Assembly: GCA_017620375.1 (NCBI GenBank)
Contig: JAFZQN010000069.1
Coordinates: 1 to 44,553, forward strand
From: Lachnospiraceae bacterium
GTDB lineage: Bacteria; Bacillota; Clostridia; Lachnospirales; Lachnospiraceae
Reading direction: 5' to 3'
DNA: 44,553 bases
How positions within the stretch are numbered: position 1 is the first letter of the stretch; each line of letters begins with the position of its first letter. Made by a program: the position numbers and the translations under genes. Below are positions 3 through 7,626 of this stretch, piece after piece. Below the pieces are notes generated by a model. The model did not search any database. It worked only from the letters and a program-made list of their open reading frames with translations, and had not been told where the DNA came from.

Positions 3-620
3 ATGAATATAATTAATTATGCAGATGGAAAGAAATTGAATATCGACCGAAAAGAAACCTTCAGATATCTGGGATATCATTTCGGAGGTTCGGTGCCGGA
101 TGATCCGGAACTGGATAAGATGGTTACGGAACTGGAGAAAAAGCTTAAAGAGGCTGTTACTCCCAGATGTGCTTACGAGATTTATGCGTTAGAGGTTAAA
201 GATGACTCATGTGTGCTAAGTTCGGATAAGCAAGTTCTTATGATCAACAGTGCACGTCTTTCGGCGCATATCAGAGGGTGCAGAAATGCTATCCTGTTTG
301 CTGCGACTTTGGGACCCGGTGCAGATATGCTGATCAGGAGGTATAACGGGCGGTCTACCATAAAGCCTGCTATTCTCCAGGCAGTCGGTGCTGCAGCTAT
401 AGAGGCTTTTGCGGATGAGGTTACGGATATTATACGTTCTAATCCGGATACATCCGATCTCAAGATGAGATTCAGTCCCGGTTACGGGGATTTTAGCTTA
501 GAGTATCAGAACGACTTTTTTAGTCTGCTGAGTCTTGAAAAGAACTTAGGCATGAGCCTTAATTCCGCTCTTCTTATGAGCCCCTCAAAGAGTATTACCG
601 CTGTTATTGGAGTTATTTAA
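3..620 (+). CDS. Methionine synthase reactivation-domain protein (stand-alone)
   Basis: This 205-residue protein resembles the C-terminal activation (AdoMet-binding) domain of cobalamin-dependent methionine synthase. In that family the domain binds S-adenosylmethionine and re-methylates cobalamin that has been oxidised to the inactive cob(II) state. The sequence shows the family hallmark RFSPGYGD near residue 157, preceded by an Ala/Gly-rich helical stretch. It is shorter than the roughly 330-residue domain of full-length MetH, as is usual for the separate Firmicutes version. The metH gene follows about 16 bases downstream and lacks this domain, so the two very probably form one functional enzyme. 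The ATG is only two bases from the window edge, so neither the ribosome site nor an upstream start can be checked. Confidence 0.88.
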   Translation: MNIINYADGKKLNIDRKETFRYLGYHFGGSVPDDPELDKMVTELEKKLKEAVTPRCAYEIYALEVKDDSCVLSSDKQVLMINSARLSAHIRGCRNAILFAATLGPGADMLIRRYNGRSTIKPAILQAVGAAAIEAFADEVTDIIRSNPDTSDLKMRFSPGYGDFSLEYQNDFFSLLSLEKNLGMSLNSALLMSPSKSITAVIGVI

Positions 621-3389: not shown

Positions 3390-3905
3390 TTAAGACACTG
3401 AACCTTCCTGGCTAACCCTTATACTTACACTAAAATCTTGAGAAATACCTATCATGTTCGTTGCTGTAAATGAAAACTCAACATCAACATATTTATTAAA
3501 TATAAAGAAATACTGTCCATATTCAATATCAAGAACTCTATTTGATATTGATACTGTAGAAGGAACATTATATACATTTCCTCGAGCATTTGATACACTT
3601 ATATAATCAGCATCGTCATCCCAAGTAAAATCACCCTCTACATAGTATGTCATTACTGTTCCTGCTGACCAAGTATAAGTATCCGTTTTTCTTAAATGTG
3701 CACTACCGGAAATATTTCTAAGATCAATCGGTGTTCCAGTTATCTTTTCATATACCATCGCATCAAGTTCTTCATCATAGTATGTTCTTTCAGAGTATAC
3801 AACCTCATTTAATAACTCACCTTGATTTTCATCAGCGGAAACTCCAACAGAATTAATCGCAAAAGCCATTATTAATACAAACGCTAATAAGATCCTCTTT
3901 TTCAT
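3390..3905 (-). CDS. Small secreted protein, unknown, SERTYYDEELDA block
   Basis: I do not recognise this 171-residue protein. It has a clear signal peptide (residues 1-24: KKR, hydrophobic core, cleavage near VSA). Mature residues 38-49 are SERTYYDEELDA, identical to a block in the neighbouring 81-residue protein. The rest is rich in Thr, Ser, aromatic and beta-forming residues, with one Lys-rich point and no cysteine, suggesting a small secreted beta-sandwich. It lies 47 bases downstream of the 81-residue gene, with a GGAGG ribosome site, and probably shares its transcript. The locus is A+T-rich compared with metH. Its function is unknown; a secreted effector or surface accessory protein of the PadR locus is an inference. 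Confidence 0.7.
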   Translation of the reverse strand: MKKRILLAFVLIMAFAINSVGVSADENQGELLNEVVYSERTYYDEELDAMVYEKITGTPIDLRNISGSAHLRKTDTYTWSAGTVMTYYVEGDFTWDDDADYISVSNARGNVYNVPSTVSISNRVLDIEYGQYFFIFNKYVDVEFSFTATNMIGISQDFSVSIRVSQEGSVS

Positions 3906-3952
3906 AAAAGACCTCCATTCTATAACATTTAACAGTCCTTTTGTTCCTACGG

Positions 3953-4198
3953 TTACGGTTCTACAGTATACGTTACTCCATTCACAGTAAATGTTGATGT
4001 TTCGTATGCCTTAAATTCAATAGTTTCATTAATCTCGGCATCAAGTTCCTCATCGTAATAAGTTCTTTCTGAAATTGTGATAAATCCGTCATCAGAAGGT
4101 TTCTCTCCTGTATCTGCTGCTGCATCAACTATTCTCGGTCCTATTACAAGCATCAAAATTGCTATAATTGCTAACACCTTGTTCTTCATGGTCTTCAC
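3953..4198 (-). CDS. Small exported protein, unknown, SERTYYDEELDA block
   Basis: This 81-residue protein has a signal peptide (residues 1-27, basic start, hydrophobic core, cleavage near VDA/AA). Its short acidic mature part carries SERTYYDEELDA at residues 43-54, the same block as the next gene, and ends in VNGVTYTVEP. It is probably a truncated or diverged paralogue of the 171-residue neighbour. The ribosome site AGGAGG lies 7-8 bases before the ATG. An inverted repeat at 4225-4247, nearly identical to one before the membrane-protein gene of this locus, lies just upstream and is a plausible PadR operator. Function unknown. Confidence 0.7.
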   Translation of the reverse strand: MKTMKNKVLAIIAILMLVIGPRIVDAAADTGEKPSDDGFITISERTYYDEELDAEINETIEFKAYETSTFTVNGVTYTVEP

Positions 4199-5546: not shown

Positions 5547-6905
5547 TCAGTTCATACTTTCTCCAATATCACTTACAATACCAATGAAAAACGGAGTATT
5601 ACTCTTGCAATCAATGAGCATATAAACAAAAGGTCTGTCCAGGTATACTTCATGATAATCCGGCGCCGCACCGTTATCGGTACTGGTAGCTGTGACCGCG
5701 CCGGCTTTTGTACCTTTTTCGTCTACTGAAATGAAGGTTTTGTGCAGCACTTTGCTTATATAAATATTGCCTTCATCCCCTGAAGCAATTCCTGAAAGAT
5801 CAGCTTTCGAAAAATCAAAAGCATCAGACATCCCCATTGTTTTCAACGCCTTGTTCAATTCAATAGTGTAATCATAGGAAAACTTGGGTAATTTTGCAAA
5901 AACCATCCCATTGGAACTGGTATCCATCAGGTTTCCAATCTTTTTTTCTGACAGAGTATCCACATAATCCGCCATCCGTATATTTTCCTTAGGAAGAAGT
6001 GCTACAAAAGCATAGTCCCTGCCTTTATAATATTTGATAAAACCTGTAGTATCTTCATCTTCCAGGTAAAGCCCTTCTGTCGAATGCATAAAAGTTACTT
6101 GTTTCTCTGTCCCGGTTTCTGTAGTAAATATCCCTTCACGTACACTGTGACTTTGATAGATCTTTTCCCATTCGGCATCAAATGAAAGCGCGTTTATCAG
6201 GTACATAACCGTTTCTTCAGGAATATCCTCTTCCTGTATTTTTTTTATCATACCGTCCGTCTTATCATCTACCCATTTATTTATCTCGTTTTTGGCATCT
6301 TCGTCAAATTTTCTTTGGTATATCTCTGCTCCATAATAATTTGCATTGGTCTGCAGGAAACCGTTATTTACACCCTTTAATCCATCTTTAAACCATATGG
6401 AATTTGCCATGGACAGTTTACTTTTCTCACTTTGTGCCAGGTTTGACATATATCCCAAAATACACTTATTTAATGTATCACGGTCTACGCCCAATACCTG
6501 CTCCATCTGCCTTAGCGTTTCACCTTCGGCACCATTAGTGCACATACCAAGTGATGCCATAACGGATACAGGAGATATAAGCAAATTCTCACCATCTACG
6601 TAGCACTCTTTAAAAAGTTGTACAGAAAAGTCGGTGATGGTTTTAGCATAAATATCACCGGAAGCCCCATAAATATCTTTTTCAGCCTCGATCCCTTCCA
6701 TCAGGTTTGAAGCCTTTATCTTACGAGATCCACTAATGATAAGAACCGCTCCTATTATTATCACTACTGCTATAGATGCAGCAATCGTAAGATACTTTCG
6801 TTTTATTTTCCTGATATTAGGAGTGGGCAGCATGTTTTGTTCACTACGATTAAGTATTTCATCGCTTATGCCGTTCATGCTTTTATAGAGATCTTCTTTA
6901 TTCAT
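5547..6905 (-). CDS. Membrane-anchored serpin, candidate partner of the ECF sigma factor
   Basis: This 452-residue protein is a serpin (suicide serine/cysteine-protease inhibitor fold) with an unusual start: about 35 cytoplasmic residues, a membrane helix at about 40-58, then an extracellular serpin domain from about 85. Family features include the FSVQLFKE helix, LLISPVSV, the NALSFDAEW strand, and a reactive-loop hinge GTKAGAVTATST near 397 ending in DRPF and PFFIGIV. The predicted scissile bond lies near small residues (NGAA), but its exact position is uncertain. The start overlaps the upstream sigma-factor stop by 8 bases and has an AGGAGGG ribosome site, so translation is coupled. The N-terminus resembles the short cytoplasmic segment of clostridial anti-sigma-type proteins. 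A regulatory role is an inference. Confidence 0.88.
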   Translation of the reverse strand: MNKEDLYKSMNGISDEILNRSEQNMLPTPNIRKIKRKYLTIAASIAVVIIIGAVLIISGSRKIKASNLMEGIEAEKDIYGASGDIYAKTITDFSVQLFKECYVDGENLLISPVSVMASLGMCTNGAEGETLRQMEQVLGVDRDTLNKCILGYMSNLAQSEKSKLSMANSIWFKDGLKGVNNGFLQTNANYYGAEIYQRKFDEDAKNEINKWVDDKTDGMIKKIQEEDIPEETVMYLINALSFDAEWEKIYQSHSVREGIFTTETGTEKQVTFMHSTEGLYLEDEDTTGFIKYYKGRDYAFVALLPKENIRMADYVDTLSEKKIGNLMDTSSNGMVFAKLPKFSYDYTIELNKALKTMGMSDAFDFSKADLSGIASGDEGNIYISKVLHKTFISVDEKGTKAGAVTATSTDNGAAPDYHEVYLDRPFVYMLIDCKSNTPFFIGIVSDIGESMN

Positions 6906-7461
6906 CTATGTAGCCCTCCTTCTTCAAATATTCCTTTAAACTTGCTCTAACTCTTTGCAATATCACCGATACATTATGCGGAGTTATCCCATAACGTGTT
7001 GCTATGGTTTTAATGCTGTCTGTAAAAAAATACCTGCGTGTAAATATATCACCCTCTCGTACGGGAAGCTGACTTACATATACTCCGATAGTTTTTTCAA
7101 GTTCTTTGGCTTCCAGCTCATTACTTATATCCTTACCGTCCCCGACGCATTCGGACAGTTCTTCTAAAGCCACGGCTGCTTCTTTACCTGATCGTTTCTT
7201 GGCAGTCATGGCTTTTAATCTGTTTATAGCTGAATTTCTTGTGATCCTGGCAAGGAACAGTTTGAGTACATTCGGCCTCTTTGGAGGCATTTCGTTCCAT
7301 GCAGTAAGCCATGTATCATTGACGCATTCTTCCGAATCTTCCCTGTTGGTAAGGATATTTTTCGCTATCGCGAAGCAATAATTCTCGTATTTTTGTGTAG
7401 TATAATATATGGCTTTCTGATCCCTTTCCCAATACATGTCGATTATCTCTTTATCGTCCAT
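6898..7461 (-). CDS. ECF-type RNA polymerase sigma factor
   Basis: The 187-residue protein has the two-domain layout of extracytoplasmic-function sigma factors. The sigma-2 region (about 15-85) contains NREDSEECVNDTWLTAWN, and sigma-4 (about 125-183) contains the helix-turn-helix IKTIATRYGITPHNVSVILQRVR. Such factors are normally held inactive by a membrane anti-sigma factor encoded next to them. Here the coupled downstream gene encodes a membrane-anchored serpin, which makes that protein the natural candidate. An AGG-type ribosome site precedes ATG 7461, and a TTGTCT-17-TATAAT promoter lies upstream. No second, ECF-type autoregulated promoter could be fixed with confidence. Confidence 0.93.
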   Translation of the reverse strand: MDDKEIIDMYWERDQKAIYYTTQKYENYCFAIAKNILTNREDSEECVNDTWLTAWNEMPPKRPNVLKLFLARITRNSAINRLKAMTAKKRSGKEAAVALEELSECVGDGKDISNELEAKELEKTIGVYVSQLPVREGDIFTRRYFFTDSIKTIATRYGITPHNVSVILQRVRASLKEYLKKEGYIDE

Positions 7462-7478
7462 AGCAACCTCCGGATATT

Positions 7479-7507
7479 ATTATAGGACGTTCTATAGGAT
7501 AAGACAA
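7479..7507 (-). promoter_or_regulatory. Promoter of the ECF sigma-serpin operon
   Basis: On the minus strand -35 TTGTCT (7502-7507) and -10 TATAAT (7479-7484) are separated by 17 bases. This is a housekeeping-type promoter, about 18 bases before the sigma-factor start. Confidence 0.7.
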
Positions 7508-7586
7508 CTTTTTTTATGGAATGTCACAAAGAGTACAAAGATCGTTGGCATTTTCAAAGCATGTTTTTGCAATCCTCCGATTTAAA

Positions 7587-7626
7587 GTAAAAACGTGACA
7601 GTGTGGACTGTCCCCACTGTCACGTT
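7587..7626 (-). terminator. Terminator of the HIT-murI-AAA+ operon; REP-like palindrome
   Basis: A perfect 12-bp stem (7592-7603 with 7615-7626) contains an inner GGAC/GTCC pairing and is followed on the minus strand by a T-rich run. It lies 17 bases after the AAA+ gene stop. The GTGACAGTG/CACTGTCAC core looks like repetitive extragenic palindromes of Firmicutes, but only one copy was noticed here. Confidence 0.75.

Follow-up and report, generated by a model that had tools for sequence, protein, structure and literature searches.

Can a serpin serve as the outer sensor of an anti-sigma factor? The question is raised by a gene pair in a 44,553-nt contig of a Lachnospiraceae bacterium (JAFZQN010000069.1), the whole of which we refer to as the window; the source genome is a draft of 2.5 Mb in 152 contigs and is 86% complete. 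Serpins, protease traps of the kind familiar from animals, are irreversible and metastable, and the regulation of many bacterial serpins is, to our knowledge, not known. We therefore looked at the two genes, at their relatives in other genomes and at the DNA upstream of them.

An ECF sigma factor gene overlaps a gene for a membrane-anchored serpin

Both genes lie on the minus strand (Table 1). The initial annotation described an eight-base overlap, and we found both reading frames in place, with bases 6898–6905 common to the two. Overlap and gene order are seen again in a 71%-identical relative (L033, the same as L062), and an 8-nt overlap is also present in L172 and in the non-serpin sisters L178 (from an inner start), L179, L181 and L182. 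The upstream gene encodes a short protein with sigma regions 2 and 4 only, as expected of an ECF sigma factor. It matches Sigma70_r2 above the Pfam cut-off (E = 4.8e-8) and TIGR02937 (sigma70-ECF) at 66.4 bits, also above cut-off, and two region-4 Pfam models score narrowly below theirs (24.4 vs 25.7 and 22.9 vs 24.1); a PDB search with the protein returned no match at E 0.001. Because sigma factors of this type number 0–9 per genome, we roughly estimate that a random gene would stand behind one in well under 1% of cases. Elsewhere in the window (3390–4198, minus strand), two small secreted-looking proteins, both containing ERTYYDEELDA, are encoded behind a PadR-type regulator and a membrane protein.

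Table 1 Features of the sigma–serpin operon in the window
Feature	Position	Strand	Length	Basis
ECF sigma factor gene	7461..6898	minus	187 aa	ORF and Pfam / TIGR02937
Membrane-anchored serpin, proposed anti-sigma factor	6905..5547	minus	452 aa	ORF, Pfam, N-terminal profile
GGAGGG, ribosome-binding-like site for the serpin, within the sigma gene 3' end	6914..6919	minus		sequence
Residues 1–38, cytoplasmic sigma-partner segment (putative minimal anti-sigma domain)	6792..6905	minus		non-serpin partner profile
Residues 39–57, single TM helix	6735..6791	minus		hydropathy
Residues 64–75, KASNLMEGIEAE, tail between TM and serpin, aligned with tengpin NLMDRI	6681..6716	minus		
Residues 90–446, serpin domain	5568..6638	minus		Pfam
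Residues 396–426, hinge and reactive-centre loop EKGTKAGAVTATSTDNGAAPDYHEVYLDRPF	5628..5720	minus		
Promoter-like site with two boxes, TGTGACAT-N13-TTGTCTTAT, ahead of the sigma gene	7499..7528	minus		

The serpin protein has the predicted layout of a membrane anti-sigma factor

The serpin protein is co-encoded with a sigma factor and, as judged by hydropathy and charge only, has its N-terminus inside the cell, a single transmembrane (TM) helix and an outer domain, which is the layout of membrane anti-sigma factors. The 19-residue TM segment reads LTIAASIAVVIIIGAVLII; KIKRK ahead of it predicts the N-in orientation, and no lipobox was found at this segment. The initial annotation had anticipated one TM helix, an outer serpin and an N-in orientation, all of which are retained here; its cytoplasmic part of about 35 residues becomes one of 38.

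The outer domain matches Pfam Serpin PF00079 over positions 3–369 of 370 (E = 4e-90, 303 bits). The hinge, G398-T-K-A-G-A-V-T405, is intact, as had been proposed, and has threonine at P14; we take GTKAGAVT to be a hinge of the inhibitory type from its agreement with the hinge consensus. The reactive loop is unlike even that of the 71%-identical relative. The closest solved structure is that of tengpin (2pee, E = 3.6e-106), and the alignment begins at the tengpin tail, NLM.RI, with which the segment KASNLMEGI between TM helix and serpin is aligned. L68 and M69 are conserved in at least 90% of a set of 50 window-like sequences, most of which are free serpins and five of which are fused. In tengpin, a group T bacterial serpin, this tail binds near strand s1A and stabilizes the native state (PMC8233489). 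By analogy, the tengpin-like tail could offer a concrete way to pass the state of the serpin to the membrane.

The N-terminal segment is shared with non-serpin partners of related sigma factors

Relatives of the sigma factor in the genus comprise 54 rows from 15 of 24 genomes, and we read the surroundings of all except one short row. Nearly every related sigma is followed by its own partner: where downstream DNA is available, this is almost always a membrane protein with a similar N-terminus and a varied outer part, L210 having no downstream partner of at least 150 aa. The shared N-terminus reads roughly M..-D-L-x-x-A-I-x-x-I-D-D-x-L-I-x-x-A, followed by basic residues and a TM segment. Among 14 full-length genus sigmas with at least 52% identity, the window's included, ten are followed by a serpin partner and four by a partner of 551–586 aa. 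The latter four (L178, L179, L181 and L182) are sister sigmas, 53–55% identical to the window's, with a membrane partner for which Pfam gave no match in L178 and L179, and the PDB none in L179 at E 0.1. Further non-serpin partners (L184, L187, L190, L201, L212, L213 and others) have one N-terminal segment and differing outer domains.

We built a profile from the first 80 residues of 66 non-serpin partner records and scanned with it 29 sigma-adjacent serpin records (20 loci, some in two records) and 147 non-partner serpins. All 29 partner records score between 20 and 61 bits, the weakest being L008 (20.0), and the best of the 147 non-partner serpins reaches 12.6 bits. The window serpin scores 44.4 bits (E = 1.2e-13), part of which comes from the TM segment that the profile takes in; the signal peptides of the controls are likewise hydrophobic. 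Pfam assigns no family, and thus no anti-sigma match, to the N-terminal segment of the window protein, and found no family at E 0.01 in ten non-serpin partners. A class I anti-sigma domain is a four-helix unit of 101 ± 33 aa (PMC7406223). With 38 residues before the TM helix and no anti-sigma match in Pfam, the segment falls outside this class and is nearer to class II (the CnrY type, a pair of helices that wraps the sigma, under about 50 aa), to which we liken it by length.

Because the topology and the N-terminal segment are common to the non-serpin partners of related sigmas, the serpin protein very probably is an anti-sigma factor with a serpin outside, as its topology had first suggested. 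That the sigma factor and this serpin-bearing protein form a functional pair is a conclusion we hold with high confidence.

The fusion recurs in the family and is rare among the loci read outside it

Serpins are present in 105 of 299 genomes of the family. Our family sample holds 132 distinct serpin genes from 97 genomes among the matches listed, with some tandem copies left out, and is made up of 30 loci and 100 of 102 further places; the window serpin is counted with the genus loci, and the second serpin of the window's genome is within the 132. That second serpin (G000:C110, L002) has 436 aa and a signal-peptide-like start, and no related sigma lies in the 1.3 kb available upstream of it.

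Among the 113 serpins with at least 1200 nt of upstream DNA, 21, in 17 genomes, are fused to the N-terminal segment and adjacent to a sigma gene (20 scored cases and L283, at first scored by its N-terminus only, whose sigma was evident once the start was trimmed); the weakest is L008 (15.6 bits in the family-sample scan). A further 16 have a sigma nearby: 11 in the order sigma, separate anti-sigma and serpin, four with the sigma farther off (one of which, L321, has the N-terminal segment itself) and one with an adjacent sigma and no such segment. The remaining 76 have no related sigma nearby, by a profile that may miss sigmas of other groups. Where upstream DNA extends to at least 2400 nt (n = 84), the corresponding counts are 19 fused, five three-gene, four farther off, one adjacent without segment and 55 with none; below 1200 nt (n = 19), they are one three-gene case and 18 without sigma.

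The initial annotation had proposed a genome search for the overlap and N-terminal segment, and the arrangement thus turns up repeatedly. It had also counted against itself the case in which homologous serpins occur without any sigma gene while the sigma factor has another partner. The first half of this holds for the 76 serpins just mentioned; as for the second, the one other related sigma of the window's genome (G000:C71) comes with its own non-serpin partner, L201, as nearly every related sigma of the genus comes with a partner of its own. The same 76 are what favours a chance neighbourhood, in which the serpin would not be this sigma's partner; given the gene overlap, the N-terminal profile and the recurrence in 17 family-sample genomes, we consider this very improbable. 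Because so many family serpins lack a related sigma and many sigma-linked serpins are separate genes, the serpin may nevertheless be cargo rather than sensor.

In a class-wide profile search, the local match begins past the N-terminus even for the window (119–489), so we chose 40 serpin loci outside the family by hand, about one per family code. One is a clear fusion (L433), and a sigma lies upstream in two (L411 and L428). No related sigma was found in 37, three of which have less than 1 kb upstream (L405, L424 and L425, the last with an N-in TM segment).

Several serpins in these collections lie behind a second, more distant sigma type that scores 22–38 bits with the profile (L072, L085, L088, L090, L094, L108, L109, L119, L122, L127, L128 and L135). 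Its partner starts about MRE(I/L)xEYTAEVxRR, and in L080 such a sigma is accompanied by a serpin fused directly. Two serpins close to clostridial ones are on contigs labelled archaeon and Dehalococcoidia (L126 and L131), where mis-binning is likely.

Fused serpins have two classes of reactive loop

We divided the fusions by their P14 residue. Class I (12 fusions, including the window) has threonine; class II (24 fusions) has valine in 18, cysteine in four and isoleucine and alanine in one each. Valine at P14 is no mark of fusion because 22 unlinked serpins have it too. The class II loop ends about GAAxPPxExIDFVLDRPF. In the ten-residue stretch that precedes the final five loop residues, mean pair identity is 0.36 in class II and 0.19 in class I; 3250 unlinked pairs matched to class II in body identity give 0.22. 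Conservation of the loop would suit a fixed target, and variability would suit a range of foreign proteases. Lacking threonine at P14, class II fusions may not be ordinary inhibitors.

These loops bear on two further explanations. The serpin could act as bait, inhibiting the site-1 protease of its own anti-sigma factor until foreign proteases use the serpin up, whereupon the site-1 protease escapes and the sigma factor is freed. The class II loop end, more conserved than expected, looks as if made for a fixed and perhaps own protease; the window serpin, however, belongs to class I, and not even its 71%-identical relative has the same loop; such a protease is purely hypothetical here. We regard this explanation as improbable. 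Slightly more improbable still is a non-inhibitory sensor, in which the fold would act as a metastable switch that responds to a ligand or to unfolding rather than to proteases: the P14 residues of class II would suit it, but the hinge of the window protein is the usual one, threonine included.

Many class II fusions (for example L288, L309, L315 and L317) carry an A-x-A-x-YPE-like segment between TM helix and serpin, where class I has its DLM tail. We do not claim the class II tail, which reads A-x-A-x-YPE in some of these fusions, as a signal-peptidase site; its distance from the TM segment varies.

Serpins appear to have been fused repeatedly and exchanged

A FastTree phylogeny of 253 serpins requires 23 changes of the fused label. 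A quick IQ-TREE analysis covered 59 rows chosen by hand, with 20 of the 24 class II fusions among them. These 20 form one clade (100*), for which the program warns of a long branch, and the 12 class I fusions need eight changes, at least five of them forced by starred branches, in a count that is blind to gain versus loss. This suggests that class I fusions arose several times. The window groups with L033 and L063 on a starred branch, next to three lipobox serpins, two of which are the third gene after a sigma and a class II fused serpin. We infer that a downstream free serpin gene became joined to the anti-sigma part. The two operons concerned (L188, G304:C16; L197, G305:C6) thus run sigma, class II fused serpin and lipoprotein serpin, apparently a sensor and an effector serpin.

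In L144/L172 (G315), the sigma is 73% identical to the window's, and the N-terminus reads MNNSDLYRGMNGISDEILERSE against MNKEDLYKSMNGISDEILNRSE in the window; the serpin, by contrast, is of class II and 22% identical. To judge by these sequences, this is one serpin exchanged for another on a kept sigma and N-terminus. Across 26 non-redundant fused pairs, the distance between sigmas follows that between N-termini (r = 0.59, a value reached in none of 2000 permutations) more closely than that between serpins (r = 0.25, p = 0.013), both values including relatedness. By itself, 0.59 is no proof, because of that relatedness and because negative controls reach 0.5–0.6 in a study in which ECF and class I anti-sigma pairs reach 0.82 (PMC7406223). 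Taken with the exchange, the apparent pattern is that the N-terminal segment travels with the sigma and the outer domain is exchangeable, yet is again a serpin.

This pattern bears on the possibility that the N-terminus is a true anti-sigma segment with some other release cue and that the serpin is the sigma's product, fused to keep the ratio of inhibitor to regulator. Three-gene operons with a sigma, a separate anti-sigma and a serpin are frequent among close relatives (L067, L071, L075, L079, L083 and others) and in the family sample, and the lipoprotein serpins of L188 and L197 are among the closest non-fused relatives of the window serpin, as such a tethered effector would have it. Repeated fusion and serpin-for-serpin exchange, on the other hand, are not required of a mere passenger, and we consider this explanation unlikely, if well above the others weighed so far.

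A promoter-like site points to possible autoregulation

Upstream of the sigma gene lies a two-box site for which we wrote the motif TGTRASRT-N13-TTGTCWTAT, picked after viewing these sequences. With zero or one mismatch and a 13-nt spacer, it precedes all seven non-redundant serpin-paired genus sigmas at 54% identity or more (the window, L144, L158, L051, L050, L146 and L157), and with a 14-nt spacer it precedes two sister sigmas with non-serpin partners (L169 and L148). It is absent at this stringency from the other 19 of 26 serpin-paired sigmas scanned, and L309, 53% identical and from another genus, has four mismatches. The site is thus confined to the window's closest kin. It can also be read as sigma-A-like (TTGTCT-N17-TATAAT, 10/12).

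The exact motif occurs once in the window's genome, at this site, and its reversed control not at all. Nine genus genomes hold five exact sites, four of which precede sigma–serpin pairs; at the fifth (G307:C34, L338), no ORF of at least 100 aa runs in the right direction, and those present face away. Of nine one-mismatch sites, five stand before sigma–serpin pairs, one before a sister sigma and three in G305. Of these three (C28, C39 and C86), we rejected the one at G305:C28 (L354) as a promoter, as it lies inside an ORF of the other strand. Allowing up to two mismatches gives 123 sites in the nine genomes versus 53 for the reversed control, a good part of the 123 coming from a dispersed palindromic repeat. 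The simplest reading seems to be autoregulation with little other output, the main output being the operon itself, as read from an incomplete genome in which looser sites would be missed. A palindrome, GTGACAG...CTGTCAC, lies upstream of the operon (window 7595–7623), and palindromes of similar form, TGTGACA...TTGTCACA, are dispersed across the genus genomes.

A proposed model for the serpin as protease sensor

We propose, with a slight leaning in its favour, that the pair is an ECF sigma factor and a membrane anti-sigma factor whose outer sensor, a serpin, is fired when a protease springs its loop. The short N-terminus would hold the sigma at the membrane, as suggested by the profile, the topology and the gene overlap. 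An extracellular protease would then attack the reactive loop, and the serpin, given its intact hinge, would spring to the loop-inserted form. On the analogy of RsiV, this would free the tengpin-like tail at the membrane face and lay the stalk open to cleavage, first by a site-1 and then by a site-2 protease. The freed sigma would read the promoter of its own gene, for which the conserved site argues, and so renew both sigma and serpin. A site-2-type protease is present in the genome but lends weak support, being found in all 14 control genomes. As for protease attack on the loop as the signal, we put it at roughly even, at best marginally better.

The serpin would in this model be sensor and single-use effector at once, each consumed trap calling for its replacement; the loss of a trap to a protease may itself be what prompts new synthesis. 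The lipoprotein serpin gene downstream in L188 and L197 fits serpin production as output. A fuller version, which we hold tentatively and at somewhat less than even, is that a suicide inhibitor gates transcription: each protease trapped would be one protease disarmed and one sigma released to order a replacement, class II being a dedicated conserved-loop sensor for a separate effector serpin (as in L188 and L197) and the window combining both roles in one protein. Separate anti-sigma operons, repeated fusions, the promoter-like site and the tengpin-like tail were all absent from the initial annotation.

A serpin thus appears to have been tied to transcription more than once in Clostridia, the named relatives of which are mostly from guts and rumens. 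Should cleavage of the loop be the trigger, these bacteria would tally protease hits by means of a single-use device and make good each one spent. This would give a role to many bacterial serpins and provide a ready-made protease-responsive switch.

Comparison with known systems

ECF sigma factors with membrane anti-sigma sensors are known, as are serpins; their combination is without description in the literature we searched. Searches joining serpins with sigma or anti-sigma factors gave no serpin anti-sigma factor in titles and abstract openings, within a coverage that most subscription journals fall outside; three of the papers, which deal with cellulosome bacteria, contain both words. RsgI of Clostridium thermocellum, the partner of SigI, is an anti-sigma factor with an outer domain otherwise seen in secreted proteins; it differs in having carbohydrate-binding or enzyme outer domains and a different sigma type.

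CnrY, a class II anti-sigma factor, has two helices in its sigma-binding segment (PMC7406223), and the window protein resembles it, by length, in its very short cytoplasmic, putatively sigma-binding segment. Siropins and other serpins of gut Firmicutes, also among the systems closest to the window serpin, are group T serpins of gut bacteria and inhibitors in vitro (PMC5127057, PMC8233489); the siropin paper (PMC5127057) uses neither operon nor transmembrane as a word, and in its available text sigma appears only as a supplier's name. The tail of the window protein differs from that of tengpin in its place between TM helix and serpin and in leading to a sigma-partner segment.

RsiV, the anti-sigma factor of SigV in Bacillus subtilis, is a lysozyme receptor (PMC6066255, PMC4183432, PMC5014341), in which ligand binding exposes the stalk to signal peptidase and RasP then cuts (PMC6066255). 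Neither of its family domains (DUF4179 and the lysozyme-binding domain) is in the Pfam result for the window protein, whose outer domain is instead a serpin and whose proteolysis is here only proposed. The likeness lies in the plan: a membrane anti-sigma factor whose outer domain binds a threatening enzyme, after which two-step proteolysis follows (PMC6066255).
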